Translations under genes and position numbers: made by a program
DNA from: a virus
Length of the DNA stretch: 64,000 nt
Reading direction: 5' to 3' (one strand)
Virus record (IMG/VR): IMGVR_UViG_3300007735_001031
Coordinates: 1 to 64,000 of that record
Notes under the pieces: generated by a model
The model's database searches: none
Seen by the model: the letters and a program-made list of their open reading frames with translations, nothing else
What the model was told of the DNA's origin: nothing
Part shown: positions 29,736-55,436 of the stretch, one piece after another
Numbering within the stretch: the stretch's first letter is position 1
How the letters are laid out: each line of letters opens with the position of its first letter

Positions 29736-30797
29736 CTAACCAATGTCAGATGGTTTTGGCTCTACAACTCCGGGCTTCTTTTCTCTTTTAACCGGGGCTG
29801 CTTCTGGCTCCAAAGAAGTTAAATCTTCACGAACATCTAGGAAGTTAATAACTGCTTTAAGCACATCCAAAAGCATCGTTACGTCAGCAAGAGCATCATG
29901 CCAGCCCTTATTTTCTACGTCAAATGCCTTGATGATCTTTCCAAGAGATACAGACAATTTGCCTTTATCTGTTGTCATTGCATTAAGAATCTTTGCGTCT
30001 TGCTCTGAAAGTTCTTTTCCGGCCTCTCTATTTGCCTTAAACATTTTTAGAGCTGGTGTTAAGAACTTTCTAAAGATCACAACTGTATCAACAGAAATGT
30101 CGTCTGGTGGTTCTCTACCAATTCTTTGATACATGTTATTTAAAAATCCAACGTCGAATGGAGCGTTTTGAGCTACCAATACTCTATCCGGGTATTTATC
30201 CAAGAACTCTGTAAACGATCTAAGAGCTTCGCCCATTCTCATAAATGGCGCTCCCTCTGGTACTTCTTCCATAGAGATATCTTCTTTGCCGGGCATTTCT
30301 TTTGCCTGTAAGAATGCTTTTCTTCTTGCTTTCTCTGGATCTCTTGAAACTCCATATTGGGTCATAGAGAAAATATCTTCTATGCCTTTGAACTTTGAGG
30401 GCTCTTGTCTAACTCTTTTAACGCCAGGGCGTACTTCTACACCGGCAGCGCGAGCAGCTGCTAGTTTCTCTGCTTTCTTGCCGCGATCCCAATCCATAAA
30501 TCCACGGGTTCTTTGACCTAGTTGGATCTTTACATTAAATTTCTCGAGGATTTCTGGATCTGCGTCCCAATTCTTTACATCAACAGCGATCGCTGCTATT
30601 TGAGTAACTTGGTGAAAATCTTTTTCTGCTGAAAGACCTGTCGTTTCTGTGTCATAGAAGATCCAAGTTTTATTTGATGCTTCTTTCATTAGCTCTCTCA
30701 TTTCTTGGAATGAGGAGCCATATTGTTCATATTCCATTACATCTTCATTAATGGTCTTTTTAAAAGATCTCCAGTTCTCAAATAGTTTCTGATACAT
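29736..30797 (-). CDS. DEDDh exonuclease (DnaQ-like)
   Basis: Motif I F-Y-D-T-E-T-T-G at 47-54, motif II A-P-F-D-V-G-F-L near 215, motif III H-D-A-L-A-D-V near 305: complete DEDDh 3'-5' exonuclease. 353 aa with a long insertion between motifs I and II. The N-terminus M-Y-Q-K-L-F-E-N-W-R-S-F resembles the capsid-targeting candidates. May proofread for the phage DnaE or degrade host DNA. Confidence 0.85.
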   Translation of the reverse strand: MYQKLFENWRSFKKTINEDVMEYEQYGSSFQEMRELMKEASNKTWIFYDTETTGLSAEKDFHQVTQIAAIAVDVKNWDADPEILEKFNVKIQLGQRTRGFMDWDRGKKAEKLAAARAAGVEVRPGVKRVRQEPSKFKGIEDIFSMTQYGVSRDPEKARRKAFLQAKEMPGKEDISMEEVPEGAPFMRMGEALRSFTEFLDKYPDRVLVAQNAPFDVGFLNNMYQRIGREPPDDISVDTVVIFRKFLTPALKMFKANREAGKELSEQDAKILNAMTTDKGKLSVSLGKIIKAFDVENKGWHDALADVTMLLDVLKAVINFLDVREDLTSLEPEAAPVKREKKPGVVEPKPSDIG

Positions 30798-30821
30798 TAA
30801 ATTTCTCCTACTAGTACTAAA

Positions 30822-31340
30822 CTAATTAGTAGGCAGAAGAGCATTCATCGCATTGTGCATCAAAATACCACTGGCTGTTCCTACGTTCAGACTTCTAACA
30901 GAACCTCTCATCCCGATATAAACAAAGTCATCGCAGAGATCGAGGATTTCATTATTCAACCCCTTTGTCTCTTCCCCGAAAATAAATAGAGATCCAGGCT
31001 TGATCTGGTAGTCGGCAACATTGATACAAGGTCTATCAATATTACATTCAATAGCTACAAGCCTATACTCCTTCTTAAGCTCCTTGATATCATCAATTGA
31101 CTTAAGATGAACTACATTTGTGTAATGATGGGTTCCAACTGAGCCTCTGCGATCCCAAGCCTTCTTGCCGAAGTAGAAGAACTTTTCACAGCCGAAAGCA
31201 TTGGCGTTTCTAATAGCCGTTGAAATATTGAAGTCTCCTTCAACATGGCTCATCATACACGCATAAGGAAGCGTGTTAAGTTGAACGTCAGCCTTGATTA
31301 GCTCGGTCGTCCAATTAGCATACTTATTCAGAACGTTCAT
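30822..31340 (-). CDS. SpoU/TrmH-family RNA methyltransferase
   Basis: SPOUT knot motifs: A-I-R-N-A-N-A-F-G, F-I-F-G-E-E-T-K-G-L and S-L-N-V-G-T-A-S-G-I-L. Methylates 2'-OH of tRNA or rRNA in known relatives. 172 aa, normal length. With 14 phage tRNAs nearby, tRNA is a natural target, but that is inference. Confidence 0.85.
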   Translation of the reverse strand: MNVLNKYANWTTELIKADVQLNTLPYACMMSHVEGDFNISTAIRNANAFGCEKFFYFGKKAWDRRGSVGTHHYTNVVHLKSIDDIKELKKEYRLVAIECNIDRPCINVADYQIKPGSLFIFGEETKGLNNEILDLCDDFVYIGMRGSVRSLNVGTASGILMHNAMNALLPTN

Positions 31341-31536
31341 TTAGAGAATCCTTGTAATCAAAGTGTCCATACTTAGAACAATACTTTCCGCAGTATTGAT
31401 CCGAAAATACAATAGGCCATACGCCACCCCCGTAGATGTCCCCCTTAGTAGGGGCGGAGTAGATACATACACCTATCAAACCATTTTCTACATCTTGTTT
31501 AAAGTAGATACAATTTTCACAACTAATCTTAGTCAT
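31324..31536 (-). CDS. 70-aa Cys-rich protein
   Basis: C-x-x-C (C-E-N-C-I-Y-F) at the start, then single Cys near 24 and C-G-K-Y-C: four to five ligands typical of small zinc/iron proteins in phages. Unrecognised. Confidence 0.62.
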   Translation of the reverse strand: MTKISCENCIYFKQDVENGLIGVCIYSAPTKGDIYGGGVWPIVFSDQYCGKYCSKYGHFDYKDSLNERSE

Positions 31537-31772
31537 AAAACCTCGAGATCACTTAATTCGTCCAGAGAAAACCAAGCCGACACCGGCTTATCACTAGGGT
31601 CAGTGTAGCTGACCTCAATGTTCTTGTCAAACAGGACAGAAGAGACAATACCTTCGACAATCATATCTCTTTGAAAGACACCATAAGCTGTTTTATATGG
31701 AACATCACTCTTTTTTACTCTTACGAAGTCCCCCTGCTTTGGCAGGTTTAATTGCTTTTGGCTTTTTTGCAT
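31533..31772 (-). CDS. 79-aa small-barrel protein
   Basis: Start ATG 31770-31772 with GAGGTTAAGA upstream; the longer frame overlaps another gene. P-K-Q-G-D-F-V-R-V-K is an SH3-like opening. Unrecognised. Confidence 0.58.
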   Translation of the reverse strand: MQKSQKQLNLPKQGDFVRVKKSDVPYKTAYGVFQRDMIVEGIVSSVLFDKNIEVSYTDPSDKPVSAWFSLDELSDLEVL

Positions 31773-32142
31773 TCTTAACCTCGTTTTTATCTTTAACAAG
31801 GACTTTGGTTGTGCATTTAGCATTACACTTGTTATAAGTTGTTGGGAAATCAATTGTCTTTTGTACCCACTCAATCATAGCTTCCTCGGTAGGGAATGAT
31901 CCTGAGTAGATAACAGTTTCAGTAGATTTCTTATGATTATAACCCGTGCTTGCTGTATGCCAGTCCTTAAAAATTGGATCCAGGACTTTAGTATAGAGTC
32001 CTCTTTTAATTCCATCAACCTGGAACCTGTATTCTATTTCTTCTTTTCTTCTGTGATAAATCCAAATTACGCCGTGCATATTATACAAGAGGGGAGTGTT
32101 ATCTCCCCTCCCTCCTAACTCTAAGTATGTAGGATTTTTCAT
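31705..32142 (-). CDS. 145-aa hypothetical protein with basic tail
   Basis: Starts at the TAATG overlap with Hsp20. Central domain strand-rich, with Cys pair (C-N-A-K-C); last 35 residues Lys/Ala/Pro-rich. A GGGGAG/CTCCCC hairpin lies inside the 5' coding region near 32100. Confidence 0.6.
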   Translation of the reverse strand: MKNPTYLELGGRGDNTPLLYNMHGVIWIYHRRKEEIEYRFQVDGIKRGLYTKVLDPIFKDWHTASTGYNHKKSTETVIYSGSFPTEEAMIEWVQKTIDFPTTYNKCNAKCTTKVLVKDKNEVKNAKKPKAIKPAKAGGLRKSKKE

Positions 32143-32507
32143 TAGTTCACAAGGATGGTCTTCACTTTTAGAACTGGTGGCTTAACCTTTGGAACTGAGA
32201 CAGTAAGAATACCGTCAACATAGTCGGCTTTAATGTTGTCGAAATCAACATTTAGAACCTTCCAAGCTCTATCAAAAGATCCGGCGTATGGATTCTTTTT
32301 CTCCGGCTGATATGAAAGAATCAGAACTCCATTTTCTTTTACAGAAACCTTGATATCTTCTTTCTTGGCTCCTGGAAGCGGAATAGTTGCAAGATAATGG
32401 TCTCCCTTGTCTACCAAATGATAAGTAGAGACATCGTGTCTATCATAGGAACCAAAAGAGCCATTCATAATTTCATCGAAAAGCTTTGAATTGTAATTAT
32501 ACCACAT
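32142..32507 (-). CDS. small heat-shock protein Hsp20
   Basis: Alpha-crystallin domain with L-P-G-A-K-K-E-D-I-K-V and the end motif D-G-I-L-T-V-S-V-P. 121 aa, short N- and C-terminal arms. ATP-independent holdase; T4-like and cyanophages also carry Hsp20. ATG 32505-32507 is set by GGAGG eight bases upstream. Confidence 0.87.
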   Translation of the reverse strand: MWYNYNSKLFDEIMNGSFGSYDRHDVSTYHLVDKGDHYLATIPLPGAKKEDIKVSVKENGVLILSYQPEKKNPYAGSFDRAWKVLNVDFDNIKADYVDGILTVSVPKVKPPVLKVKTILVN

Positions 32508-32555
32508 TCTATTTCCTCCATGCATATACCCCCAGTAGGGGGGTAGTAGTAGTCT

Positions 32556-32584
32556 ATACTAATCCGGCCCTAGCAGTCTGTCAA
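32556..32584 (-). promoter_or_regulatory. sigma-70 promoter for hsp20
   Basis: -35 TTGACA (32579-32584), 17-bp spacer, weaker -10 TAGTAT (32556-32561). The leader contains an ACCCCC/GGGGGT hairpin (about 32527-32543) just before the ribosome site. Confidence 0.7.
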
Positions 32585-33315
32585 GTCTCATCAGGAAATT
32601 TTCCTATATAACCAGCATTTCTATAAAATTTCTTAAACATTTCAAGTTTTACATTAATTTTTGGATATGATTTTAATGTTTTCATCAATTCAGTTCTAAT
32701 AAATAAAGTTTCAGCGTAAGTATTGAAATCGTTTTCTTCATTTGTTTTTCCATAGTTATACATAAACCCATCAGAATTAATAGAATTATCGCTTGTGTAT
32801 GCAAAATAAAAATCTGTTAAACAATGATCATTAAATTCACTGGAGAAGTCGTATTTACTGCGAGAAATAGCTTTCCATTTTAAAATTAATTCGTATTGGT
32901 TTGCTTTAAAAACATCACTAGAGAACTCATGATGAAGAATTCTCAGATAAACTTCTGTGAGATCACCACTATAATTATCTAAACAAACAAATATCATCCT
33001 ACCATCACTAAGACCCCCTATATCAATTCCATTCTTTTTTAAGTTTTCAACCAATACAATCTGATCAATATGTTTTCTTAAAAAGCTGGTATCATAAGAT
33101 GATATGAATTTTTTTAAGTAAGGAAAAAATATATCTAACTTATTTTTAGAGGCCCTTGTTCCATAAATATTTGATGCATATTCGCGAGTTTTATTTGGAT
33201 TGCATGATACTTTAATTCCTGATTCGGCTGAGTAAAGATCAATTTCTCTAGTACATTCATAAGCAAAAACATTCGCGGGCAATAGTAAAAGTAAAAATAG
33301 AATAATTCTAAACAT
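32581..33315 (-). CDS. exported metallopeptidase-like protein
   Basis: Clear signal peptide (residues 1-18, ending V-F-A). H-H-E-F-S-S near residue 128 resembles the H-H-E-F motif of a zinc-binding peptidase family, and a late Y-A-E-T segment may give the third ligand. Exported, 244 aa. Peptidase activity is inferred from the motif only. Confidence 0.6.
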   Translation of the reverse strand: MFRIILFLLLLLPANVFAYECTREIDLYSAESGIKVSCNPNKTREYASNIYGTRASKNKLDIFFPYLKKFISSYDTSFLRKHIDQIVLVENLKKNGIDIGGLSDGRMIFVCLDNYSGDLTEVYLRILHHEFSSDVFKANQYELILKWKAISRSKYDFSSEFNDHCLTDFYFAYTSDNSINSDGFMYNYGKTNEENDFNTYAETLFIRTELMKTLKSYPKINVKLEMFKKFYRNAGYIGKFPDET

Positions 33316-33671
33316 TATTTTCCTTTAAAATAAAATTGAACATAGATAATACAGATAACTAAAAGGGAAGTTATTATATTTCTATGTGTAAAAAATGGCT
33401 CATTAAAAAATATCTTTGATAGAGTATACATAGCCGGAAAAGAAGCGGCAAACATAATCCATCTTATCTGCCAAATGCTATGGGTTTCTTCAAATATATA
33501 TCTTGACGCCAGCCAAAATAATATGTTTGAAGGAATGCCAAAAAGAATGATTGCGTATAATGGACTGCTTTTCCATGACTCCCATAGAAACTGAGAGTTG
33601 CCGCCGAACCATGCTACACTGTGTCCTAGGATAGCTAGAAGGCAGCCTAGAAATAGTAGAGTATGATTCAT
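33315..33671 (-). CDS. 118-aa four-helix membrane protein
   Basis: Four hydrophobic segments (about 5-20, 36-55, 66-85, 95-113). N-terminal G-H-S-V-A-W-F-G-G-N-S-Q-F motif is shared by a common family of phage membrane proteins of unknown role. Confidence 0.68.
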   Translation of the reverse strand: MNHTLLFLGCLLAILGHSVAWFGGNSQFLWESWKSSPLYAIILFGIPSNILFWLASRYIFEETHSIWQIRWIMFAASFPAMYTLSKIFFNEPFFTHRNIITSLLVICIIYVQFYFKGK

Positions 33672-33997
33672 TAGTGAATACTTAGGCTAAAATTTGAAAC
33701 ACTTGTAAATAGTTTTTCGGCCTTATAGGTACTATTTTTGTATTCGTTAATTTTCTGCATAGTATCTTTAGTAATTAAGAAAGTATTTCCTTCTAATTCT
33801 AATATCTTTTCTATTTCTAGAAGATATTGACCAAGCCAAAAATAATACATATTCAAAGAAGTGAAAGAATAGAAATCATCGTGATTATAGTTTACAACTT
33901 CTTTCATGATTAATCTGACCTGGAGCATTAAATTCAGAGTTTTTTGTCTGGCATCCGCCAAAGCATCTCTCTGTATTTTAAACTTTGTGGTTTTCAT
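33671..33997 (-). CDS. 108-aa helical hypothetical protein
   Basis: All-helical by pattern. Abuts neighbours on both sides with start/stop overlaps. Unrecognised. Confidence 0.62.
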   Translation of the reverse strand: MKTTKFKIQRDALADARQKTLNLMLQVRLIMKEVVNYNHDDFYSFTSLNMYYFWLGQYLLEIEKILELEGNTFLITKDTMQKINEYKNSTYKAEKLFTSVSNFSLSIH

Positions 33998-34386
33998 TTA
34001 ACTTCAATAGATTGTTGCATTTCTTTTAATGATTTAATTGCTTCCATGAGATTGGATAATTTATCTGAGGCCGATGCTGTTTCAACTTTTTTCTCGACAG
34101 GTTTTTCTTTGGGTTCTTCTTGTTGCGGGGTTAAAGCTACGACATAAGCCTGTGTATTGTTTTTGAGATTACCAAGCATAGCATTGATAACTTTGATTAA
34201 TTGTTCAGATTGCTCGATTGCGGATAGCGTTTCCTCTATATTTCTATTTTTACAAGCAACAGAGGCGGCTTTAATCTCACACACTAAATCATTTGAAATA
34301 GATGCAAGTTCTTCCGCATCAAGATGGATTCTATCCATCAAAGTCTCTTTTTTAACAAGAGTTGAATAATAAGCTAAAGTTGACAT
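33994..34386 (-). CDS. 130-aa helical hypothetical protein
   Basis: Helical with a Pro/Glu linker (P-Q-Q-E-E-P-K-E-K-P) then a short amphipathic helix. Its start overlaps the GroEL stop, so it may be coupled to chaperonin translation. Unrecognised. Confidence 0.62.
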   Translation of the reverse strand: MSTLAYYSTLVKKETLMDRIHLDAEELASISNDLVCEIKAASVACKNRNIEETLSAIEQSEQLIKVINAMLGNLKNNTQAYVVALTPQQEEPKEKPVEKKVETASASDKLSNLMEAIKSLKEMQQSIEVK

Positions 34387-35957
34387 TATACCTCCACGAT
34401 TGCGTTATTTGTTGTAATCAACGTTGATACAACTGAAATAGAATTCTTTATGGCAGAGGTTGTAACTTTCACAGGGTCAATCACGCCTGCCTTGTACAAG
34501 TCTACCACCGTGCGCGTCTTGGTGTCAAGGCCGAGTCCGTCCTTTGACTTGATAACCTTTTCAGAGAGAATTTGTGCCGGAAGGTCAAGATTCTCACAGA
34601 TCTTTTCAAACGGAGCCGATAACGACTTGATAACAACATTGTAGCCGACAGCTTGATCCTCGGTTAGATCCTTTGGGACTCTAATAGCCTTAGAAGCCTT
34701 TAGAAGAGTTGTGCCGCCACCTGGGTGGGTTCCGGCCATTTGCGCTGATTTAACAGCCTCCAAGGCGTCCTCAATACGGTGTTTCTTTTCTACGACTTCT
34801 ACCTCACTTGAACCACCAACACGAATGGTTACAACACCACTGGCAAGTCTTGTAATTCTATCTTGGATTCTCTTACATTCTTCTAAGTCAGCAGTCTCTT
34901 TGATAAGTTCTTTAAGTTCTTCAGATCTTTTATCTATCTCTTCCGCCGATCCCTTGCCTCCGATAATCGCCGTTTGAGTCTTTCCAACTTCCACCGCTTT
35001 ACAACGGCCAAAATCTGCAAGCGTAAATTGGGAAAAATCCAAACCAGAGTCTCTAGTAAAAAACCTACCATTAGTAGCGACAGCAAGATCAGCCAAAACA
35101 TTTCTTCTTTCTTCTCCGTAGTAAGGGGCTTTCACGGCAACAATCTTCATGGAATTACGAAGAGCATTCATAATCAAAGCAGCTAATAGTTGTCCTTCAA
35201 CATCATCAGCAACAATAATTAAAGGTTTCTTTTCTCTAGCCGCAAGTTCTAAAACAGGCATGATTGGTTCTACATGCTCTAACTTCCAGTCAGTAATAAA
35301 CAAGAGACAATCATTATGCTTGGCTACTTTTCTCATTTCGTCAGTGATAAACTGAGAAGAGAGGTAGCCAGACTCAAAGATAAAGCCTTCGGTTAAGTCC
35401 AGTTCTGTTTCGTAGGACTTGGAATCCTCAATTGTGATCGCTCCATTCTTACCCGCCAGATCAACGGCTTTGGCGATTAGCTTACCAATAACTTTATCAT
35501 TATTGGAAGATACGGTTGCGATATTCTCAATATCTTCAATTGAGTTAATTGACTTTGACTTAGAATTGATAAAGGCGATTACATCGTCCTTTGCCTTTTC
35601 CATACCCCTTCTCATTTCAGTTGGAGAAATGCCGGATGAAAGATACTTCTGTGATTCCTTTAACATACGATACGCTAGGAGGGTGCTAGTAGTGGTCCCA
35701 TCCCCTGCTTCGTGTGCTGTAAGCATGGATACTTGCTTGAGAATCTGTGCTCCAGCATTCTCAAACGGATCTTCAAAATCAACAAAGCGAGCAACAGTTA
35801 CGCCGTCCTTTGTAATGATTGGTCTTTTATCTTTTTGTTGTAAGATTACATTTCTTCCACCAGGTCCAAGTGTGGAAGAAACAAGATTAGATAGTTTTTC
35901 TACGCCTAACAGGATCTTTTCCTGTAATTGTTTGTTGCCCTCGTAAGCCTTTCCCAT
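34386..35957 (-). CDS. groL: phage GroEL-type chaperonin
   Basis: Group I chaperonin: S-S-T-L-G-P-G-G-R-N-V near the N-terminus, G-D-G-T-T-T (catalytic Asp) near 86-91, apical domain E-D-S-K-S-Y, and H-P-G-G-G-T-T with the second catalytic Asp in I-E-D-A-L. 523 aa versus ~548 in bacteria; no GGM tail. Phage chaperonins in jumbo phages fold virion proteins. ATG overlaps the DUF192 gene end, with GAGG six bases upstream. Confidence 0.93.
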   Translation of the reverse strand: MGKAYEGNKQLQEKILLGVEKLSNLVSSTLGPGGRNVILQQKDKRPIITKDGVTVARFVDFEDPFENAGAQILKQVSMLTAHEAGDGTTTSTLLAYRMLKESQKYLSSGISPTEMRRGMEKAKDDVIAFINSKSKSINSIEDIENIATVSSNNDKVIGKLIAKAVDLAGKNGAITIEDSKSYETELDLTEGFIFESGYLSSQFITDEMRKVAKHNDCLLFITDWKLEHVEPIMPVLELAAREKKPLIIVADDVEGQLLAALIMNALRNSMKIVAVKAPYYGEERRNVLADLAVATNGRFFTRDSGLDFSQFTLADFGRCKAVEVGKTQTAIIGGKGSAEEIDKRSEELKELIKETADLEECKRIQDRITRLASGVVTIRVGGSSEVEVVEKKHRIEDALEAVKSAQMAGTHPGGGTTLLKASKAIRVPKDLTEDQAVGYNVVIKSLSAPFEKICENLDLPAQILSEKVIKSKDGLGLDTKTRTVVDLYKAGVIDPVKVTTSAIKNSISVVSTLITTNNAIVEV

Positions 35958-36417
35958 TCATAGCCTCATTTATATATTTGATTAGTTGTTCTTGTAGTTG
36001 AATCTTGTCTCTATGTGAACGCGCAAGGTCAAGTGTATCAAAGAATTTCATTTTCGTCAAGCTGCCTTCTTCAATATCATTCACCAAGTCGTTTCCAGCA
36101 ACTTCCAAAACAAACTTACATGGGGCTTTAGGAGCATACGGTCCATTAGTTAAAGGCTGAACGTTTGGTAGATAATCTACAATCTGTCCGTGCTTACTGA
36201 TAAAAACCATATCCAAAGGAACATATGTATCCTTCATTTGAAAGGGGTGCTTATCTTCCTTGGGCATATCGAATAACATTCCGAAACCGTCGTCAAGTTT
36301 GTGTCTCTTTGAAAGACCTTTATATCTAGCCGCGTCATCCATAGCGACTTCAACTACATAATGTTTATCCCCAATACTAATCATACCAAATGGTTTTGTC
36401 AAGATCTTTTTTTTCAT
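35887..36417 (-). CDS. DUF192 protein
   Basis: M-D-D-A-A-R-Y-K-G-L-S-x-R, M-L-F-D-M-P, F-Q-M-K-D-T-Y-V-P-L-D-M-V-F-I: complete DUF192 pattern (residues 15-125), then a helical extension of 50 residues. The family occurs widely in bacteria and phages without known function. Confidence 0.85.
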   Translation of the reverse strand: MKKKILTKPFGMISIGDKHYVVEVAMDDAARYKGLSKRHKLDDGFGMLFDMPKEDKHPFQMKDTYVPLDMVFISKHGQIVDYLPNVQPLTNGPYAPKAPCKFVLEVAGNDLVNDIEEGSLTKMKFFDTLDLARSHRDKIQLQEQLIKYINEAMNGKGLRGQQTITGKDPVRRRKTI

Positions 36418-37658
36418 GGTTGTTCTTCTTTTATAAAATACTGATCAAATTTAACAGTGGTCTCAGATAAATTATTCACTGTTTGATATCCCGTACTTTG
36501 ATCTCTGGTTGAGAAAAATTTATTCATTGTTTGCACAGATGTTTTTAATAAATTTAATACCTCAAACATTTTGCCAGATAAAGTCCTTCTATAATTTTCT
36601 ATGACTTTATTTAAAACTTCATCTCTTAAATCTAACTCTCCAGTAAAATATGAAGCTTCTGATGGTTTCGTTCTATCGGCATAGACCTTACTCATGAAAG
36701 CTGCGTTTAATGAATATTGTGTAGGGATAGTAAATTCTTCTTTCCCTGGTATAATTTCTCTGTATTTTTCTATAAATTTTAATGCTTGATATCTTCTTAA
36801 TAAATATTCTGGACTTTGATCTTGTATTTTGTCTAAACTAGGTATAAAAATTTGATTTGTATTTGGATCAAACATATCCTGAAGATTTTTAATAAACCTT
36901 TGAAAAGTATCTGCAGATCCTCTAAAATTTGCTGGTGGTATATAAGCTCTAAATTCTTCTTTAAAATTTTTTAATTCCAATTTCTCCAGGAACCCTTTGA
37001 GATTTAATTCAAAAGTAAAGAATCTATATATTCCCGGCGTTCTATCTTTTAAAATAATAATATAAAAATAATTTGGGGATTCTTGATAATATTCTATCAG
37101 TTGAGTAAAACTTCCTCCGACCTTTGGATCTTTTGATCTTGGATTATCTGGATCTCTTGCCGATAGTGTTTTTAATTGTACGCCACCTTTAAATACTTTT
37201 TGTGATTCAATATCAACAGCGCCATTGTTTGCCTCATTGGATCCGTCTATTAATTGTGCCATAATTGTTTCAGCTTGAAATCCCGCAACTGATTCGTCTG
37301 TATTTAAAAGATTTTCTCTTATTTCTTGTATCAACAAAAAAGACGAGAAAGCTCTTTTAATATTTCCTGCTCTAATTATTTTTTCTGGTCTCAACAGAAA
37401 ATCATTTACTTTATCAATTCTCTGGTAAAGAAATGGGGAATTTCCTTTAATGTTCTTTAATAGTTCTGTGTATTCTGTATAGGCTGCCGTCTTTTTTTGT
37501 TTTCCTTCGATTTCTCCTTTGCCTGCCTCAATATCAAGAGGGCTTGGAACAAATATTTTTGGAACATCCTCATTTAGTTTATTCTCAATCAATTTAATAA
37601 GAAGTTCATTTCCTTTCTTTGGAGCATAATAGTTGTCAAGCAGTTCTTCAAGATTCAT
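36414..37658 (-). CDS. 414-aa protein with possible PD-(D/E)xK core
   Basis: F-Q-A-E-T-I-M-A-Q-L near 126, then G-A-V-D-I-E...G-V-Q-L-K-T-L near 145-165: Glu, Asp and Q-x-K at the spacing of a restriction-like nuclease fold. N- and C-terminal parts unrecognised. Head-completion or DNA-end nuclease roles are possible guesses. Confidence 0.55.
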   Translation of the reverse strand: MNLEELLDNYYAPKKGNELLIKLIENKLNEDVPKIFVPSPLDIEAGKGEIEGKQKKTAAYTEYTELLKNIKGNSPFLYQRIDKVNDFLLRPEKIIRAGNIKRAFSSFLLIQEIRENLLNTDESVAGFQAETIMAQLIDGSNEANNGAVDIESQKVFKGGVQLKTLSARDPDNPRSKDPKVGGSFTQLIEYYQESPNYFYIIILKDRTPGIYRFFTFELNLKGFLEKLELKNFKEEFRAYIPPANFRGSADTFQRFIKNLQDMFDPNTNQIFIPSLDKIQDQSPEYLLRRYQALKFIEKYREIIPGKEEFTIPTQYSLNAAFMSKVYADRTKPSEASYFTGELDLRDEVLNKVIENYRRTLSGKMFEVLNLLKTSVQTMNKFFSTRDQSTGYQTVNNLSETTVKFDQYFIKEEQP

Positions 37659-37748: not shown

Positions 37749-38687
37749 TTATTTCTTTTTGGCTTTCAAGGCTGCTGCTTTCTTTTTCTTCATCATCATT
37801 TCTTTCTTTTTCTTCGCAGCGGCCTCTTCTTCTTTCTTCTTTGCGGCAGCTTGCTTTTCTTTCATTAATTTTGCCTTAGCTGATGCTTTTGGATCCTTTT
37901 TCTTTGCTTCCATTAAGCGAGCCTTAACTCTAGCAGCTACTTTATTTACGAGACGATTGATTGCTTCTGCCATTGGGGCTGGGGCTGCCTCTGGAGCTGC
38001 TGGTGGAGGGGCTTCTGGGGCTGCTTCGCCTTCTGGTGCTTTTTCTTCGCCCGATTCTTCAACTGTTACCTCTACGCCTAATGTTTCTTGTACCAATTCA
38101 CCAAGTTTCTTTACAAACTCTTTAATCTTTGTTTCCATTTCATCACCACCGGCTCCTTCTGGTGCTGGTGGTAGTTCTGCTGGGGCCTCCTCTCCACCTG
38201 CTGGTGGGGGTGGAGCGTCAGCTTGTTCGAGTAGCTTCTTTAGTCTTTTCATGCTCTTGCGAACATTTTCTTGCATATATCCTTTGCAAGAACCTTCATG
38301 AATTTCTCCACATTTCTTACAAGCCATACCTTCTTCTAACTCATTTTCTTCGTGGGGATAAGCCTCTTCTAAAGATTCATTCTCTTCATAATCTTCTTCG
38401 CCTTCATCTAAAGATTCATTCTCTTCATCATCATAAGCCTCTTCTAAAGATTCATTCTCTTCATCATCATAAGCCTCTTCTAAAGATTCATTCTCTTCAT
38501 CATAGACTTCATCTAAAGCGTCTTCGCCTTCTTCTTCTTGATCGCCTGGATAGTATCTACCTTCATCGGAACCTGTATCGTGGTGTCCTTCTTTTAAGAA
38601 TGGATTTGCTAATGAACCAATACCAGCAAGACCCATCATTCTCATAGTCGTTGCTTCTGTTAATAATAAATCTTTACGTTTTGCCAT
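37749..38687 (-). CDS. repetitive acidic/Pro/Lys virion polyprotein candidate
   Basis: N-terminus M-A-K-R-K-D-L-L-L-T-E, then an acidic region with four to five copies of E-E-N-E-S-L-E-E-A-Y-D-D, a short CxxC...C zinc patch (C-K-K-C), Ala/Pro/Glu stretches and a Lys/Ala tail (mostly K after residue 255). Repeated L-E-E fits prohead-protease sites. Low-complexity internal head proteins of large phages look like this. Followed by a strong terminator. Confidence 0.65.
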   Translation of the reverse strand: MAKRKDLLLTEATTMRMMGLAGIGSLANPFLKEGHHDTGSDEGRYYPGDQEEEGEDALDEVYDEENESLEEAYDDEENESLEEAYDDEENESLDEGEEDYEENESLEEAYPHEENELEEGMACKKCGEIHEGSCKGYMQENVRKSMKRLKKLLEQADAPPPPAGGEEAPAELPPAPEGAGGDEMETKIKEFVKKLGELVQETLGVEVTVEESGEEKAPEGEAAPEAPPPAAPEAAPAPMAEAINRLVNKVAARVKARLMEAKKKDPKASAKAKLMKEKQAAAKKKEEEAAAKKKKEMMMKKKKAAALKAKKK

Positions 38688-39328: not shown

Positions 39329-39330
39329 TA

Positions 39331-47303: not shown

Positions 47304-47332
47304 ATGATAAGCTATGTTTAGTTTTAGGTCAA
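47304..47332 (-). promoter_or_regulatory. sigma-70 promoter for thyX
   Basis: -35 TTGACC (47327-47332), 17-bp spacer, -10 TATCAT (47304-47309). Perfect CATAGAG/CTCTATG dyad (47284-47290, 47300-47306) overlaps the -10 and start region. Confidence 0.8.
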
Positions 47333-47736
47333 GACCACTTTCTTTTAAATGCTTTTTTAGACATAAATGAACCGCCTGCTCCGCCAGCGTATCCCTCTAC
47401 TGACGAAGCTCCTGGTCCGCCAGACATAGCAGACATTTCTTCTAATTGCTCTTCTTCTACAGAATCTACGGCTTTATTTGTTTCAGATCCAGAAGGCTCA
47501 TTGATTACTGCTTCATTTTCGAATTCTTCCCATTCGTTCTTAACGACAAATGAAGGATCGGTCATTAATTCTTTTGCTTTCTTGGGTGGTGGTCCAACTT
47601 TCTTTTTGTTTTTCTTTTTATTATTCTTCTTATTTATTTCGTCTTTCTCTTCGTCTGGATTAATAATCATATCTTCCTTGAACGTATTTTCGAGGAGAAA
47701 AGATTTCCATTTATCATTTATATCTTTATAGTTCAT
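47329..47736 (-). CDS. 135-aa internal-head candidate
   Basis: N-terminus K-W-K-S-F-L-L-E-N matches the shared F/W...F-L-x-E motif of capsid-targeting candidates. Then Lys/Asn-rich and Gly/Ser-rich disordered regions, including K-K-N-K-K-K. Ends K-A-F-K-R-K-W-S. Likely a small basic virion protein. Confidence 0.58.
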   Translation of the reverse strand: MNYKDINDKWKSFLLENTFKEDMIINPDEEKDEINKKNNKKKNKKKVGPPPKKAKELMTDPSFVVKNEWEEFENEAVINEPSGSETNKAVDSVEEEQLEEMSAMSGGPGASSVEGYAGGAGGSFMSKKAFKRKWS

Positions 47737-48485: not shown

Positions 48486-48512
48486 AATGCCTCTTGCTAA
48501 TGAGTTGGCCGT

Positions 48513-48541
48513 ATCATAAACGGGAGTTAATTAAAAGTCAA
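48513..48541 (-). promoter_or_regulatory. sigma-70 promoter for kinase gene
   Basis: -35 TTGACT (48536-48541), 17-bp spacer with TAATTAACTC, -10 TATGAT (48513-48518). Confidence 0.8.
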
Positions 48542-50108
48542 ATTTAAATGATGTGTAATCTGGTTCTGGTTGTTTCTCTGCCTGTGGTTTTATCTCTGGC
48601 TTTGATTCTGGTTCACTGGTTAATCCCAATTTCTCTTTTTCAGCTTGCCAAGCTTTTTGAGACCGATATTTTTTTCCATCTATGTAGTATTCTTTAGAAT
48701 ATGGACTAAACACGGCTGGTCCATCTAATCTATGTTTTTTACCATCTTTATACCACATCTCAGATCCATCAATAGCTTTAACTGCTGGGCCTCCAATTCT
48801 ATGTTGTTTACCATGCTTATACCAGCTTTCGGATCCGTTCTTCCAAATAATTGCTGGCCCATTTTCTCTGTGTCTTTCTCCGTCTTTAAACCATTCTTTA
48901 ATGGCACCGTTATTCTGGATCGATGCTGGTCCGTCATCTCTATCTAATTTACCATTACGATACCAATATTGGGAATCGCGGGTAATTCTTGCTGGACCAT
49001 CTTCTCTATGAAGCACTCCATTTTGCCACCATTCTTCTTTATTCAAATAAGAATATTTGGGATCTTTATAAACAAGAGCAGGGCCACCTACTCTATGTCT
49101 TTCTCCGTCTTTATACCACTCTTGCTGAGTTTCTCCGAAATCAATTGCTGGTCCATCCAATCTATGTAGTTTACCATTCTTATACCACTCCTGCTTAATC
49201 ATAAGACCATCTGTCGGAGTTTTAATTATAACTGCTGGTCCGTCGTCTCTATGTTTTTCGCCGGATGAATTATAATAAGTTATATGAGGGCCAGAATATC
49301 CTTTTACTTGCGTAACCATTCCACCATTTGGTAGTTTTTCAGATTTATATTCTTTAGCCTTATTAATAACTTGTTTTGGTAGCTCTTTTATTTGTTTAAC
49401 AATATCGTTTAATATAAAGAATATACCTTGTCCATATACGGTTTTATCTTCTTTATCCATATATTGATTAGAACCATAACTAAACTGATATTTTTCACTT
49501 GGGTCCTGTTTAGAAATAAAAATAATTAATGGACTATCTCGCTTATGATACTGCGTATAATAGTTTCTACTGCCTCTTGAAGCAGTACACCATCTAGTTC
49601 CAGTTCCAAGTTGGCAAGAGGCCGCCTTTGATTCTGGAATATAAACATTCCATTCATTATCTTCATAGATTTTTCTTACGTCTTCTTCTTTAACTACGGC
49701 CGCTTTCTTTTTGCCTTGATAAACTCTCCATTTACGAGAAGATTTTTTCATCATCTCTGTAAATTCTTCTACGCTTTCAAAAGCATTAATATCATTTTTG
49801 GTTAGCATTCTATCAAGATTATTTGCCTTAATCATATAGAATTCTTCAACAAATTTTTGCTTAGGTCCTTCAACAACTCCATTCATCATGAATTGTTTTA
49901 TTCTCCAGTTAAGATAATTTGCTTTCTCAGAATCTTCTATATCTTCTGGAACAGTTGATAGTATTGCTTCTTTTGTTTGTTGAGCATCTACTTTATGATA
50001 ATTGCAGGAATTAAGGAATTTTTGTGAATCTAATCTTGGTAGAACCTCTTCATATTTTAGTTCTACTAATAAATACCTTCTCCAAGATTCCATTAAAAGA
50101 TGCATCAT
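48531..50108 (-). CDS. 525-aa multi-repeat HREDGPA protein with TRWCTA domain
   Basis: N-terminus L-L-M-E-S-W-R-R-Y-L-L-V-E fits the capsid-targeting motif. Residues ~170-230 contain G-T-R-W-C-T-A-S...P-L-I-I-F-I, a domain common in phage head-region proteins. Residues ~280-480 are about ten copies of a 20-24-residue repeat (W-Y-K-N-G-K-L-H-R-x-D-G-P-A). Ends in a Pro/Glu linker. Likely packaged; repeat role unknown, paralogous to the single-repeat miniproteins. Confidence 0.75.
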   Translation of the reverse strand: MMHLLMESWRRYLLVELKYEEVLPRLDSQKFLNSCNYHKVDAQQTKEAILSTVPEDIEDSEKANYLNWRIKQFMMNGVVEGPKQKFVEEFYMIKANNLDRMLTKNDINAFESVEEFTEMMKKSSRKWRVYQGKKKAAVVKEEDVRKIYEDNEWNVYIPESKAASCQLGTGTRWCTASRGSRNYYTQYHKRDSPLIIFISKQDPSEKYQFSYGSNQYMDKEDKTVYGQGIFFILNDIVKQIKELPKQVINKAKEYKSEKLPNGGMVTQVKGYSGPHITYYNSSGEKHRDDGPAVIIKTPTDGLMIKQEWYKNGKLHRLDGPAIDFGETQQEWYKDGERHRVGGPALVYKDPKYSYLNKEEWWQNGVLHREDGPARITRDSQYWYRNGKLDRDDGPASIQNNGAIKEWFKDGERHRENGPAIIWKNGSESWYKHGKQHRIGGPAVKAIDGSEMWYKDGKKHRLDGPAVFSPYSKEYYIDGKKYRSQKAWQAEKEKLGLTSEPESKPEIKPQAEKQPEPDYTSFKFDF

Positions 50109-50122
50109 ATTTTATTCCCTAA

Positions 50123-50764
50123 TTAATCATCGATCTCTAAACTTGGTCCAGAACTTCTCGGGGCAGACGATCTTGCTGGTGTTGGAATTTTTGGTAAAGA
50201 ACGACCAACTGGGGCTTCGGATGATTCACCAGCCATCATTTTTAATACCATAGCTTTTAGATCATCAAAATCTTGTTTTAGTTTTTCGTGTTCTCTTCTT
50301 AGTTTAGCCAATTCTTCTTGTTGATCGAGGGCGGAAGAAGAACCAGAAGTTCCGGCATCTTCATACTTATCTTCTGGTCCTTTCTTGGCTCCAGCCATCT
50401 TATAAATCTTATTGATTACAGGCTGCATAACTCTTTCCATTTGCTCGGCATTTTGGAGAAGAATATACGCTCCTTGCTTTGCTCCATCGGCCCCTTTTCT
50501 ATAAGAGGCTGGTTGCATATCTGATTTGGTATATGCTGCTGAAACAGGAGTAAAGTTGTGGAACTTTCCTTCTTGATCTTTAATTGTAATATAAGAAGAG
50601 TGTCCTTCGGATCCTTGTCCTACTTCACAATTAGATCCAAATAATTGCGTTAAGGCAGCAGATAATTTGCTAACTTGTTTATCTGTTGGTGCCTCATTTA
50701 AAAGAGTTTCTTTTAAGAAATATCGCGGATCAAATGGTTTTTTGTTTTGTCTATTAAATAACAT
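50123..50764 (-). CDS. 213-aa virion protein candidate
   Basis: N-terminus F-L-K-E-T-L-L-N-E-A is another L-x-E leader. Central strand-rich domain, coiled coil ~135-165, then Pro/Ser/Ala/Arg-rich tail. Same operon as other head candidates. Confidence 0.58.
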   Translation of the reverse strand: MLFNRQNKKPFDPRYFLKETLLNEAPTDKQVSKLSAALTQLFGSNCEVGQGSEGHSSYITIKDQEGKFHNFTPVSAAYTKSDMQPASYRKGADGAKQGAYILLQNAEQMERVMQPVINKIYKMAGAKKGPEDKYEDAGTSGSSSALDQQEELAKLRREHEKLKQDFDDLKAMVLKMMAGESSEAPVGRSLPKIPTPARSSAPRSSGPSLEIDD

Positions 50765-51687
50765 TATTCCTCTCCCTCCACTTTCTTACCTGCTCTCCAT
50801 TGATAACAAGACCAGTAGCGAGCTGTGCAACGATCTTTGCCTGCTGGCTTATCGCACTTATGTCTTGCTCTGAAATTCTTTCTACGGGCTGGCGAATCTC
50901 TCTTAATTGATAATCCTGGATCACCGAAAGAAATCTTCTTTACTCTTCCGCCGCATTTAACATAAACGTGAAATTTCTTATTTGAGCCTGCGGGATTACG
51001 TGTTACTTTGCCGAGCCTTGGTTTCTTTTTTTTTACTTCGGCTTCTGAGAGATATTCAACGCCTTCCTCCATCTCCCATCCTTCTCCTGGCGCTGGATCG
51101 TCTTCATCTGCCTCTTCTCCACGTTTTCTAAAATGTTCGTCCGCATCATAATCACAATCTGGGCATTTACCGGTAACTGGATCAAATTCATAAGATCCAC
51201 ATTCTGGGCAACCATCATCGTCGCCACCAAAATCATCATCGTCGTCGTCAAAATCATCGTCGTCGTCAAAATCGTCGTTGTCGTCAAGATCTTGTTCTGC
51301 TTGGTCTGGCTCTCTTTCTTCGCCATATTCATCCAACATGGCGTCGGCTTGTTCTTCTGTTATTTCTCTGACTTCCAAATTCTCAAACAAGATTTTTTCA
51401 AGCTTCTCAATTGCTTCATCAATCTTGCTCTTCTTGGCTTTTTTCTTTTTAGCAATATGCATTCTTAATTGTGGGGGAATTTTACCTTTGCCTTTTTTAG
51501 CTTTTGGAGTATCCTTCTTTCCACCAGCTTCTTTTGAAGCTTTGCTCATAGGTTCTTCTTTATCGCCGTCTTTATCAAGATCTAAGAAATCTGGCTTTGA
51601 TCCTTTGGACTTGCTGGCCTTTACTTCTTTTTCCTTCTTCTCTTGTAGAAGGCGATACATCATTCTATCCCACAAATTATGTCTCAT
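50764..51687 (-). CDS. 307-aa head-polyprotein candidate
   Basis: Start L-W-D-R-M-M-Y-R-L-L-Q-E-K fits the leader motif. Basic Lys/Ala region, I-L-F-E-N-L-E and A-M-L-D-E linkers, a long Asp run (about 20 D in 35 residues), a CxxC...CxxC zinc ribbon near 175-195, L-S-E-A-E linker, then a basic module (K-I-S-F-G-D-P...A-R-Y-W-S-C-Y-Q-W) widespread in marine phage virion proteins. Confidence 0.65.
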   Translation of the reverse strand: MRHNLWDRMMYRLLQEKKEKEVKASKSKGSKPDFLDLDKDGDKEEPMSKASKEAGGKKDTPKAKKGKGKIPPQLRMHIAKKKKAKKSKIDEAIEKLEKILFENLEVREITEEQADAMLDEYGEEREPDQAEQDLDDNDDFDDDDDFDDDDDDFGGDDDGCPECGSYEFDPVTGKCPDCDYDADEHFRKRGEEADEDDPAPGEGWEMEEGVEYLSEAEVKKKKPRLGKVTRNPAGSNKKFHVYVKCGGRVKKISFGDPGLSIKRDSPARRKNFRARHKCDKPAGKDRCTARYWSCYQWRAGKKVEGEE

Positions 51688-51720
51688 TACAATTCTCCTA
51701 TTGGTATATTAAATAGTCTG

Positions 51721-52017
51721 TTAATCTTTAGTTTTCTTTTGACCGGCCCAAGTATTACACCATTTCTTGCCCATACACATAAAGTCATGCATCTCGCAGA
51801 AACCAAGACCTTCTCCGTCATCTACACACTTTTCTACAATTTTTGTATTCCATGCTTTACAATTTTCGCAGAGTTCGCCTTTAACTTGTGATTTACCGTA
51901 TTCATATTCTTCTATGGCGTGCTGTTTATTTTTAGCATTAACTTTTGGATTCTTTGTTGCCTCGGGGCATTTTGAAATTGAAAGTTTGCTTTCATGAAGT
52001 TTAATTATAAGTTTCAT
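51721..52017 (-). CDS. 98-aa Cys-rich protein
   Basis: Seven Cys, including C-E-N-C-K-A-W and C-E-M-H-D-F-M-C-M-G-K-K-W-C. Pattern recalls small iron-sulfur/zinc domains found in phage structural operons. Same module type as in the neighbouring polyproteins. Confidence 0.6.
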   Translation of the reverse strand: MKLIIKLHESKLSISKCPEATKNPKVNAKNKQHAIEEYEYGKSQVKGELCENCKAWNTKIVEKCVDDGEGLGFCEMHDFMCMGKKWCNTWAGQKKTKD

Positions 52018-53882
52018 TAATCTTCCTCTCCTACGCCAATGTTTTTAAGCCGTTGTTGATTCGTTGGCTGAGTTGGGCCGGTTTCTTCTTGTTCTCTTTG
52101 TAAGTTATCGCCTCTTCTCTTATAGCCTTTGCACTGAGAAGGTGTTGGGCGGCATCTTGGATACTTAGATCTCTTCTCACCGCCTTGTCTGCCGCATGGC
52201 TTACATTTACCATCACGGCAAGTATTGCAATCAACCCAACCGCCTTTTTTGCCGGGGGCACCTTTGCGTTTAAACCAGTCGCCTAAGTTTGTTTCACTGG
52301 AAGGCTTACCGAGCTTACGTTCATCCAACTCAATCTCTTCGTTTTTCTTTCTACCTTGACAATGCGCTCTTTGAGAAAAGCCCTTTGGATTCTTACAGTC
52401 AATAGATTTTTTATATTTTTCAGACCATTTTTCGTCTAGCTCTTCTTCAGCTACAATATGTTTTTCTGTTTTTGCTTTCTTTGACTTCTGAAGTTTTTCT
52501 TGATCCTTGGAACCAAGCATCGTAGAAGCGGCGGCGGCAAGAGCCACGCCTTTTTTGGCTAGATGTTTTGCTTTAGAGTGTTTCTTTGTTTCTTCTAATT
52601 CTTCCTCTTCTTTTATGTTTTTCCAGATCTTTCCCTGACGGCATTTAACAACAGCACCAGAAGCATAGGCAGAAGGCCAAGCATCATATTTACTCTTTGC
52701 TATTCTAGTACAACGATCTTCTTTGCCTTTTTTCTTTCCTTCTTCTAATACTTCACCAAATTTAATTGTAATTTTTCTATTTTCGGATATTGTATTACCG
52801 AATTCTTGTTCAGCCTTGGCAATTGCAGCCATCTTTCTTTGTCCACCTTCATCAGTTCCGGCATACATTCTCATTGCTCTTTCTAAGTCGCCACCTTTAG
52901 CTTTTATGTTTTTGGCAATAGTAATAATAGATGCTTCAATTCCATATTTTGGAATCCAAATCATATAATGAGGAACACCAAGAATACTTTTAATATTATA
53001 ACCCTCATATGTTGTAAGAGTTACGCCGCCCATTCCATAAGCAGTTGAGTTTGCTCTTATTGCAGCTTGGGGGTCTCCCTTTGATCTCATAGTTTGACTA
53101 TAAATTCCAGTAGGAGTTAAACCAGACTCTCCTTTCATAACACCAATTGCAATATGTGGAGGCAGCCCGTATTTAGGAGCAATCTGTTTAATTAAATCAA
53201 TTGATTGAGAGACCGTCCAACCGCTCACTGATGATTTATTTTCATCAAATAATTTCCAAAGAAATTCTATATAACCATTAAATCCGCCAAATTTAGCAAT
53301 CAATTCTTTTTTGCTTAATGACAAATCAGCTTTTGGATCGACTCCAGATATATTAATAGAATCAGTTTGTTTGGCTTCGGGCTCTTTTTTCTTTTGTTCC
53401 TTGTCTTTAGAGTCTTCCTTTTCATCTCCATCAAAGGCAGATTTAATTTTTTCCCATGCAGAGCTACCAAAACTTTTTAAATCATCCAGCCAATCTTCTT
53501 CTAAAAGAGCTTGTTCTAATTCCTCTTTAATGATAGATTCTTTTAAGTGTTTAAAATATTGAACTTGTCTCTCTCTCTTCATTGCTCCCGCCTTTGATGA
53601 ATAGCATCCTAAATTTCTTTTTGTCTTTTTAGAAAATAAACAATATTTTCCACCTTTTTTTCTAATAACTTCGTCTAGTTGTTCGGACTCTTCTATAGAT
53701 CCACCGAATCCAGGAGGAGCTGACTTGCCCATTTTGTAGTCAGGCTTTTCTTTATAAGGACTTCCACCGCTACTTGCCTTTTGGCCACCTTTAGATAATA
53801 AACGAAGTTTCCATTTTTTATAGTTTTTTCCAACTATTTTCTGAAATTGGCTATCCGCTTTTGGAACCTGCTGATTATCCAT
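52017..53882 (-). CDS. 621-aa polyprotein with transglycosylase-like domain
   Basis: Residues ~190-350 look like an SLT-type lysozyme fold (A-I-G-V-M-K-G-E-S-G-L, A-Y-G-M-G-G, M-R-M-Y-A-G-T-D). Four or more small Lys/Cys-rich modules surround it, including R-I-A-K-S-K-Y-D-A-W-P-S-A-Y-A-S-G and G-G-W-V-D-C-N-T-C. They are separated by Glu-rich linkers with L-D-E or L-E-E (S-E-Q-L-D-E, V-L-E-E, E-E-L-D-E, I-E-L-D-E). Reads as a string of internal-head proteins cut at L-x-E by the prohead protease. Confidence 0.7.
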   Translation of the reverse strand: MDNQQVPKADSQFQKIVGKNYKKWKLRLLSKGGQKASSGGSPYKEKPDYKMGKSAPPGFGGSIEESEQLDEVIRKKGGKYCLFSKKTKRNLGCYSSKAGAMKRERQVQYFKHLKESIIKEELEQALLEEDWLDDLKSFGSSAWEKIKSAFDGDEKEDSKDKEQKKKEPEAKQTDSINISGVDPKADLSLSKKELIAKFGGFNGYIEFLWKLFDENKSSVSGWTVSQSIDLIKQIAPKYGLPPHIAIGVMKGESGLTPTGIYSQTMRSKGDPQAAIRANSTAYGMGGVTLTTYEGYNIKSILGVPHYMIWIPKYGIEASIITIAKNIKAKGGDLERAMRMYAGTDEGGQRKMAAIAKAEQEFGNTISENRKITIKFGEVLEEGKKKGKEDRCTRIAKSKYDAWPSAYASGAVVKCRQGKIWKNIKEEEELEETKKHSKAKHLAKKGVALAAAASTMLGSKDQEKLQKSKKAKTEKHIVAEEELDEKWSEKYKKSIDCKNPKGFSQRAHCQGRKKNEEIELDERKLGKPSSETNLGDWFKRKGAPGKKGGWVDCNTCRDGKCKPCGRQGGEKRSKYPRCRPTPSQCKGYKRRGDNLQREQEETGPTQPTNQQRLKNIGVGEED

Positions 53883-53885
53883 TAA

Positions 53886-54236
53886 CTAAACCTCGTATTG
53901 TTTCCAGGCATATTTCTTTCTTTTTTGGAAATAAGAAATTTCATTTTGGTGTTCAAAAGCCTCTTGTTCAAATGGATTTTGAAAGTATGCTCTTCTTCTA
54001 TCCTTATACTTAATTAGACCTTTAATATAGTAATAAGCATACATGGCCCATTGTCCTAGGAAATACAATTCTTTTTGTTGGACGTAGTGTATAAGTTCAT
54101 GTCTTTTTGTTTTTTGAGATAACTTCTCAGCCGAAATAATCCAAATAGCAAATGAGATTGCTATGATATTTAAGTTAAATATTTTTGATAGATAAGAGGG
54201 GATCTTTGAATTTTCTATGATTATTGGTAATTTCAT
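53886..54236 (-). CDS. 116-aa membrane HExxH protein
   Basis: Hydrophobic helix near 25-40, then H-E-L-I-H-Y-V-Q-Q near 52, a zinc-peptidase motif of the type found in DUF4157-like domains. ATG 54234-54236 with GGAGG upstream. Confidence 0.6.
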   Translation of the reverse strand: MKLPIIIENSKIPSYLSKIFNLNIIAISFAIWIISAEKLSQKTKRHELIHYVQQKELYFLGQWAMYAYYYIKGLIKYKDRRRAYFQNPFEQEAFEHQNEISYFQKRKKYAWKQYEV

Positions 54237-54257
54237 ACATAAGCCCTCCAAATTAAA

Positions 54258-55436
54258 TTAAGCAACTTGTGAAGTTGATTGTTGTGGTTCTGTTTTAACG
54301 GTTGAAACAATTTCTGGATATATTCCTCTTCTGTTCATTATACAATTTTTTGCTTTTGGATCCTGTTTACAATTACGTATCTTTTCAACAATATAATCTC
54401 TTACTTCTGGAACAGGTGTTCCTTTTGTTGCTTGCTCTATTTGATAGGCTAAATTTTCATATTCTTCTGGTGTCGCATATGATTGTAGAATAACATAATA
54501 ATTTGGATCACCTAAATTTGGAATCTCTCCTCTTTGTATCTTCCCTTCCTTCTTTATTCTTTGAAGTATTTTAGCAAACCAGAATTTCATTGGACGATAA
54601 TATCGTTGTTGAGATTCCGAACGAGAAAGAACATACGGGAGTTGATATTCTGTTTTTTGAACATTTAACATGTCCTTAACTTTTTCATATTGTTCTGGTC
54701 TTTCTTTTTTAAAGCTTGGTAAAATTATTTGTCCAAGATTTGAAAGTTCATCATATATATTTTTCTTATCCTTTTCAAGATTCTGCACCCTATAACCTCT
54801 GCCCAAACCATATCCTCGTGATGTTGCTACATCCATCTGAGCTTCCGCATTTAATCTTCCAGCGCTTGGTCCATCATTAATGCAGTGTCCTAATTCGTGA
54901 ACGATTGTTTGAAGAGGATCTTTGTCCGCTTTTCTTAGCGCTGGAAAATTAATAAATAAAGTATCAACAGCTGGTTTATATACTCCAAATCGCCCCTCTA
55001 GTTCACTATTCTTGGAAATTTTTAATGGCTTTGGTCTCCAATATAAAGAACCGCCAACACCATATGCTTTATTTTTTCTTATTTTTTGAGCATCTACCCA
55101 CACCTTTTGCCACCCACCTGGAAATAAATTTGTAGGATATAGAGCATTTAAATATTTTGGAAGATCAATTATTATTGTTGTTCCATCTGGTGATTTTTCA
55201 AGTCCCAATAGTTGATTTTCAATTTCATCGCTCATTATATGAACGAAAGTTCCATGTTGGTCTGAGTTAGGATTATTAATCGGATCTTTCTTTGGGTCCT
55301 TTGAAACAGCGGGCTGCTTGGATATCGTTGGAGCGGTTGTCGTTTTAGGCGTTGCTAAATAATTACCTTGTTCTGCGGGAGAACCTTCTTCTTCTTTTAA
55401 TAAGAATTTTATCCAATTCTCATACAAAATTTTCAT
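54258..55436 (-). CDS. 392-aa packaged metallopeptidase-like protein
   Basis: Leader M-K-I-L-Y-E-N-W-I-K-F-L-L-K-E matches the shared motif. Pro/Thr linker to ~70. H-E-L-G-H near residue 187 with a following E-A-Q-M-D gives a plausible zinc site. ATG 55434-55436 follows GGAGAGGAAA. Could act in the head or be injected. Confidence 0.68.
   Translation of the reverse strand: MKILYENWIKFLLKEEEGSPAEQGNYLATPKTTTAPTISKQPAVSKDPKKDPINNPNSDQHGTFVHIMSDEIENQLLGLEKSPDGTTIIIDLPKYLNALYPTNLFPGGWQKVWVDAQKIRKNKAYGVGGSLYWRPKPLKISKNSELEGRFGVYKPAVDTLFINFPALRKADKDPLQTIVHELGHCINDGPSAGRLNAEAQMDVATSRGYGLGRGYRVQNLEKDKKNIYDELSNLGQIILPSFKKERPEQYEKVKDMLNVQKTEYQLPYVLSRSESQQRYYRPMKFWFAKILQRIKKEGKIQRGEIPNLGDPNYYVILQSYATPEEYENLAYQIEQATKGTPVPEVRDYIVEKIRNCKQDPKAKNCIMNRRGIYPEIVSTVKTEPQQSTSQVA

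Follow-up and report, generated by a model that had tools for sequence, protein, structure and literature searches.

A shared N-terminal peptide on unrelated proteins

Why do several proteins with unrelated bodies begin alike in a single virus genome? The question is raised by IMG/VR record IMGVR_UViG_3300007735_001031, a linear virus record of 72,348 bases, of which bases 1-64000 form the window. A first-pass annotation of the window had quoted eight peptides as one shared motif and proposed that they are capsid-targeting peptides, which a gp21-type protease would remove behind (L/I)-x-E. In phage T4, the internal proteins IPI, IPII and IPIII carry such a sequence, which gp21 cleaves (Mullaney and Black 1996, reviewed in PMC9026906). 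Our results indicate that four of the eight proteins share one Trp-containing tag, which is most likely a T4-type capsid-targeting sequence in a new, lineage-specific sequence variant.

All eight peptides were present, each at the N-terminus of a minus-strand open reading frame (ORF). The coordinates quoted for them are the low (3') gene ends, which are used as gene names below, and the tags sit at the high ends (Table 1). The motif was shared by 29736, 47329, 48531 and 54258, which carry one N-terminal tag (class A, or W-type) with the consensus E-[NSK]-W-[RKI]-x-[FY]...(L/I)-x-E. It did not extend to 50123, 50764, 37749 and 14705, whose differing N-termini merely contain L/I-x-E; 50123, 50764 and 37749 each have an N-terminus of their own that is conserved in relatives, and have only L/I-x-E in common. 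These relatives were retrieved via RecA (G001, G002 and G003, of 111-117 kb, as well as G004 and G005); RecA identity is 81-90% and the gene order is syntenic. In comparison with other genes, the N-termini of the candidate set were better conserved than the bodies (p 0.009 with G001, p 0.07 with G003).

The pattern [EDN]-x-W-[RKI]-x-[FY], which was picked post hoc, matched 4/92 N-terminal 30-mers as compared to 1/521 internal ones (Fisher p 0.002). [LIFM][LI]xE alone showed moderate N-terminal enrichment (16/92 vs 29/521, p 3e-4), and the strict T4 pattern [FYW]xx[FYW][LIVM]xE was not significantly enriched in the window's own genome (1/112 vs 3/662). Since the strict T4 pattern was not significant on the window proteins, the case rests on a W-tag matrix and on data from outside the window. 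To avoid circularity, a 12-column matrix was trained on 18 tag sequences, all from other phages, and every position of the window record was scanned. Among 20,401 positions, 48531, 29736 and 54258 ranked first, second and third, all at residue 3-4, with 18.5-19.7 bits as against 7.5 bits for the next best, and 47329 ranked fifth. The tags of the window are divergent members of the family, with Glu at W+6 to W+9, counted from the Trp. The first-pass annotation had also advised a genome-wide motif search for further cargo; the top three of the W-tag matrix were all listed already, and a second tag, class B (described below), added 63415-64143.

Position, portability and spacing of the W-type tag

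Two DNA patterns for FENWRKF, with its position unconstrained and the residues behind it left free, were run over IMG/VR, and open frames of at least 60 residues were counted. FENWRKF was N-terminal in 53 of 53 frames (13/13 with the first pattern, 40/40 with the second). The reversed-peptide control gave one match, in a short frame, and cellular genomes (one per species, 84,980 species; AGR-codon pattern) gave 13 frames, 0 of them N-terminal. Coincidence would be the simplest explanation if short hydrophobic N-termini with L-x-E are common: L-x-E alone occurs in 29% of internal 30-residue windows, and on the window alone this explanation applies to 50123, 50764 and 37749. For the W tag, it is already refuted by the out-of-sample matrix ranking and the 53 N-terminal positions, and as a general account it is hardly credible.

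The second set contained 36 non-redundant proteins. Glu stands at W+6 in 30 of them, with a Glu fraction of 0.03 at W+4 and 0.06 at W+5 (background 0.087), and L, I, V or M stands at W+4 in 31. The tag family has aromatics at i and i+3 and (L/I)-x-E with the Glu at i+6, and this short peptide stands at the very N-terminus of proteins that are unrelated in the rest of their sequence. G003 has further tagged proteins that are absent from the window (LFESWRRYVEVINE; LLENFRRFTEEE). A search with the W tag as a 20-residue query against the named phages of the phage collection gave no convincing match, a query this short being insensitive, and the literature yielded no phage paper on FENWR.

Other phages have whole operons of tagged genes. 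In contig G018, 13 genes in a row (72,822-86,429) begin MKL[LI]-[FL]-E-[NS]-W, one of them with an extra M, and in G017, six of seven consecutive genes are tagged. The G018 genes at 82,683 and 84,515 share the same beginning, and the 461-residue one is a relative of 48531. Such real-looking paralogues (82683-83939 and 84515-85900), together with the tandem arrangement, could mean that all tagged genes diverged from a single ancestral gene, the N-terminus having changed least. However, tagged bodies have unrelated domains (DnaQ-like exonuclease, DnaJ, PolyA_pol head, NT5C and HELGH), and the 36 bodies of the second set fall into 28 separate blastp families, which makes common descent very improbable. 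Across the study, the tag was seen on a DnaQ-like exonuclease, a DnaJ protein, a tRNA nucleotidyltransferase, a deoxyribonucleotidase, a HELGH protein and a phrog_727 protein. The adjacent cassettes also recall the T-even ip loci (PMC12373910), and the shared stretch might on this ground be a DNA element, either a translation start region or a recombination site. Yet the codons vary synonymously within the tags (KLL as AAA TTA TTA, AAA CTC TTA or AAG CTA TTA; Arg as CGA, AGA or CGC), which indicates that selection acts on the protein and leaves a DNA element highly doubtful.

Head protease and capsid protein in tagged phages

Neither head genes nor Peptidase_S77 were found in the 72-kb window record, which is a fragment of a T4-like phage. 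In G001, the structural module sits before the homologue of the record's last gene, suggesting that the record stops at the expected start of the head and tail genes. The gp21-type protease that the first-pass annotation advised seeking elsewhere was found in the close relatives: G001-G003 encode Peptidase_S77, which co-occurs with gp23 (PF07068) in these and in G006. The GELDHP and SSRGLGS segments of the protease align with T4 gp21. The capsid protein of the relatives has a predicted cut site, LLRE/A (the stroke marks the cut), aligned where T4 has FLTE/A, and the gp23 propeptide contains a similar K-W...L-L-E segment. In G018, gp23 and gp21 lie at 59-66 kb. In G001, a ribosomal protein S21-like gene (phrog_21469; L053 13761-14003) separates the gene of the head protease from that of the capsid protein, and a similar gene is present in G003.

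Of the 12 tagged contigs that reach 100 kb, 11 had S77, as did all 9 of at least 130 kb, and the tagged long contigs were also linked to gp23. Among control contigs, S77 occurred in 2/24; since most controls are short, with only two of 100 kb or more, and some of the tagged contigs may be related to one another, this co-occurrence is supporting but not decisive. Other points likewise weigh against a T4-type targeting peptide. The exact T4 spacing is found in only one of the four window tags (47329); in 48531, 54258 and 29736, Glu stands at W+7 to W+9, the L/I-x-E lying 1-3 residues later. The G003 homologue of the metallopeptidase-like 54258 is without an in-frame W tag. Some bodies tagged elsewhere, such as the tRNA nucleotidyltransferase and the deoxyribonucleotidase, are not obvious head cargo, and class B is also seen on contigs that lack S77.

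The tag might instead be a localisation signal for a target other than the head (host membrane, replication compartment or phage-made scaffold), with (L/I)-x-E as part of a helix and not a protease site. In favour of this, several of the tagged proteins are enzymes that act in metabolism or on RNA, and the phage has a gene for an FtsZ/tubulin-like protein (named by eye; L001 15340-16164, record 70340-71164) that is kept in relatives. Some other tubulin-encoding phages make intracellular compartments. However, Glu is fixed directly behind the helix at the spacing of T4 itself, long tagged contigs are linked to gp21 and gp23, and the gp23 propeptide has its similar K-W...LLE segment. These observations render a non-head target unlikely, although less so than the other alternatives.

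Proposed function of the tag

For the W-type tag, the proposal of T4-type targeting, with cleavage behind (L/I)-x-E by a protease of the gp21 type, fits well, given the protease in relatives, S77 in the tagged long contigs, Glu at the T4 spacing and the tagged operons. It stands only in part, since the eight proteins do not carry one motif, 14705 bears another tag of uncertain processing, and we infer packaging and injection. In the proposed mechanism, the short helix F/L-E-N-W-R-x-F/Y would dock cargo on the scaffolding core while the prohead is being assembled. It may do so at the same place as the gp23 propeptide with its similar K-W...L-L-E segment. Once the shell is closed, the gp21-type protease, which like the site is recognised from sequence, would cut behind (L/I)-x-E. 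By analogy with T4, the exonuclease, the metallopeptidase, the HREDGPA-repeat protein and other cargo, once freed, would stay with the DNA and be injected.

The balance tips slightly towards a broader picture, in which a large uncultured T4-like lineage has operons of at least a dozen unrelated enzymes. Each of these would bear one of two interchangeable N-terminal tags, be packaged in the head, be trimmed there and enter the host at infection. Their cargo would comprise nucleases, a metallopeptidase, cell-wall enzymes, a tRNA nucleotidyltransferase and repeat proteins, suggesting a head with far more enzymatic cargo than that of T4. If this is true, the tag alone reveals the injected protein set of a phage from its sequence. 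The W tag would then allow candidate injected proteins to be listed for uncultured phages, most of whose genes have no known function, and its compactness makes it a possible means of loading proteins into phage heads.

Comparison with known systems

In the T4 peptide, targeting depends on residues 4 and 7 and processing on residues 8 and 10 (PMC9026906). T4 ipII and ipIII begin MKTYQEFIAE/A, that is, Y-x-x-F-I-x-E, while T4 ipI has L/I-x-E later. In T-even phages, internal proteins marked by the targeting sequence were later shown to be injected and to counteract restriction (PMC12373910, PMC9391042). The W tag resembles the T4 tags as a short N-terminal peptide on unrelated proteins with aromatic-x-x-aromatic-(L/I)-x-E spacing, in the protease family (here in relatives) and in the cassette clusters. 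It differs in sequence (FENWRKF as against KTYQEF in T4), in its larger enzymatic cargo, and in its runs of as many as 13 consecutive tagged genes with a second tag class nearby.

The Kyanoviridae phage C48C1 has T4-type N-termini (MLSFKQFVSE, MMLDFKNFITE, MITFKKYLEE and MKKFKQYIDE), 7/50 of its N-termini matching the T4 pattern as compared to 1/448 internal windows. One of them bears a phrog_7595 domain, as does 50764 of the window, but they are of the F-K-x-F/Y type without the W-R core. In the giant phages SPN3US and phiKZ, head propeptides are removed by a related prohead protease and cargo is ejected with the DNA (PMC5694885). Removal and ejection would be alike in the tagged phages, whereas the propeptides of SPN3US and phiKZ are mostly longer than 100 residues, with A/S-x-E sites and no short tag common to many genes.

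Tagged and tag-like genes of the window

Table 1. Genes of the window with a W-type, class B or other tag-like N-terminus
Gene	Coordinates	Strand	N-terminus
DEDD (RNase_T/DnaQ-like) exonuclease	29736..30797	-	class A tag MYQKLFENWRSFKKTINE at 30797-30744
135-aa protein	47329..47736	-	class A tag MNYKDINDKWKSFLLE at 47736-47689, exact T4 spacing
HREDGPA-repeat protein, GTRWCTA segment	48531..50108	-	class A tag MMHLLMESWRRYLLVE at 50108-50061
HELGH metallopeptidase-like gene	54258..55436	-	class A tag MKILYENWIKFLLKE at 55436-55392
phrog_7595 protein	50764..51687	-	tag-like MRHNLWDRMMYRLLQE at 51687-51640
213-aa protein	50123..50764	-	...FDPRYFLKETLLNE at 50764-50693
Acidic repetitive protein	37749..38687	-	MAKRKDLLLTE at 38687-38655, without W tag
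414-aa protein	36414..37658	-	conserved, ...KGNELLIKLIENKLNE at 37658-37569
Class B tag protein	14705..15088	-	MNDRLLKKMILEAIQDTLDE at 15088-15029, class B pattern
Class B tag protein	63415..64000	-	MATKYLRKIILEELKKVLKE; gene start 64143, beyond the window

The exonuclease (PF00929, 5e-15) retains its tag in G001 (LFESWRKYQKVIKE) and G003 (LFESWRKFKTLKE). In 47329, the tag is 81% identical to that of G001 and the body 38%; orthologue tags read INDKWKVFLTE and INNRWKQFLAE. Homologues of 48531 have MKQLLENWNRFILKE in G005 and MKLIFENWRKFLNE in L378 (36% over 507 residues, E 2e-105), and orthologue tags also read LLENWNRFILKE and IFENWRKFLNE. Its AlphaFold model was of low confidence (mean predicted local distance difference test score (pLDDT) 55), with the tag in an N-terminal helix, and a Foldseek search with this model found nothing. 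HREDGPA-type repeats also occur in several small separate ORFs at 6487-9836.

The start of 54258 is most likely the ATG at 55436, with AGG upstream, and not the TTG at 55472. The protein had no Pfam match, and its HELGH is conserved in the G003 homologue. The AlphaFold model (mean pLDDT 45, low) places the tag in an N-terminal helix with a long unstructured stretch behind. A single-sequence search of IMG/VR found no relatives, and an alignment recovered one, the known G003 copy. A blastp link to a tagged G017 protein was weak and left the HELGH region uncovered, and was dropped. In G003 (L058, upstream of 2966), an ORF in another frame with a class B-like start (MNNILREMILQELRTVLAEQ) precedes the untagged homologue; a tag swap plus a frame break is possible.

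Among the genes without the W tag, the N-terminal 22 residues of 37749 are 76-81% identical in relatives and the body 47-58%. The corresponding values are 67-71% and 20% for 36414, which was absent from the eight initially listed. The N-terminus of 50123 resembles that of the otherwise different G001_71546 (FRDPRYFLREQ), and the N-terminal segment of 50764 is N-terminal in G005 and internal in a G001 fusion protein (KWDILMHRLLTEKKEKE).

This fusion, G001_71546 (698 residues), combines a 50123-like N-terminus with a region that weakly matches NlpC/P60 (E 0.011, short of the Pfam cut-off) and with a copy of the 50764 protein. The MRxxxWDxxMxRLLxE found at the N-terminus of 50764 is thereby internal. 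In C48C1, the phrog_7595 domain stands behind the T4-like MKKFKQYIDE, and a Zeta-toxin-like kinase reads MKNLLTLIQEEITSVLSE-GLYD in G003 and MIPFILKE-GLYD in HTVC008M. These module swaps are compatible with a removable leader, short of proof of cutting.

A probable second tag, class B

The class B tag (LLKKMILEAIQDTLDE; LRKIIxEEI) was found in 14/1029 N-termini and 0/6127 internal windows of this phage and its relatives. LRKIIxEEI was N-terminal in 67/89 matches (reversed control, 1/17). In 63415-64143, the N-terminus is 71% identical to that of G001 and the body 28%, and in G018, three class B genes (MKITKTQLKQIIKEEL) follow shortly after the class A operon. (L/I/V/M)-x-E stands at a fixed place in only 16/66, and S77 is present in 8/15 class B contigs. 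Since the L-x-E site is loose and about half of the contigs are without S77, class B is kept only as probably a second cargo tag of the same phages, the processing of which is less certain.

The gene at record 66863-68302 (SLRSQILSEIKKLLNE; L001 11863-13302, PG-binding match) looks class B-like and is missed by the class B pattern. It and G001_58289, otherwise diverged, have a common N-terminal class B-like segment and share a C-terminal ESKNW..TRE...SxLFERLV. Since segments are shared at both ends, the proteins may be processed N- and C-terminally, as is T4 Alt.

Genomic context of the window

A DNA-level search of the window against named phages gave no match. Positions 1-5900 form a compositionally distinct contig end, with a G+C content of ca. 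50-53% as compared to roughly 35-46% over most of the remainder, five tRNA genes and few clear genes. The window as a whole contains 14 tRNA genes and, at 13847-14209, a tmRNA gene with the tag ANDNVETFNYALAA. GroEL-, adenylosuccinate-synthetase-, IMPDH/GMP-reductase- and ribonucleotide-reductase-like genes, named by eye, lie at 34386-35957, 56401-58383 and 61501-63357.

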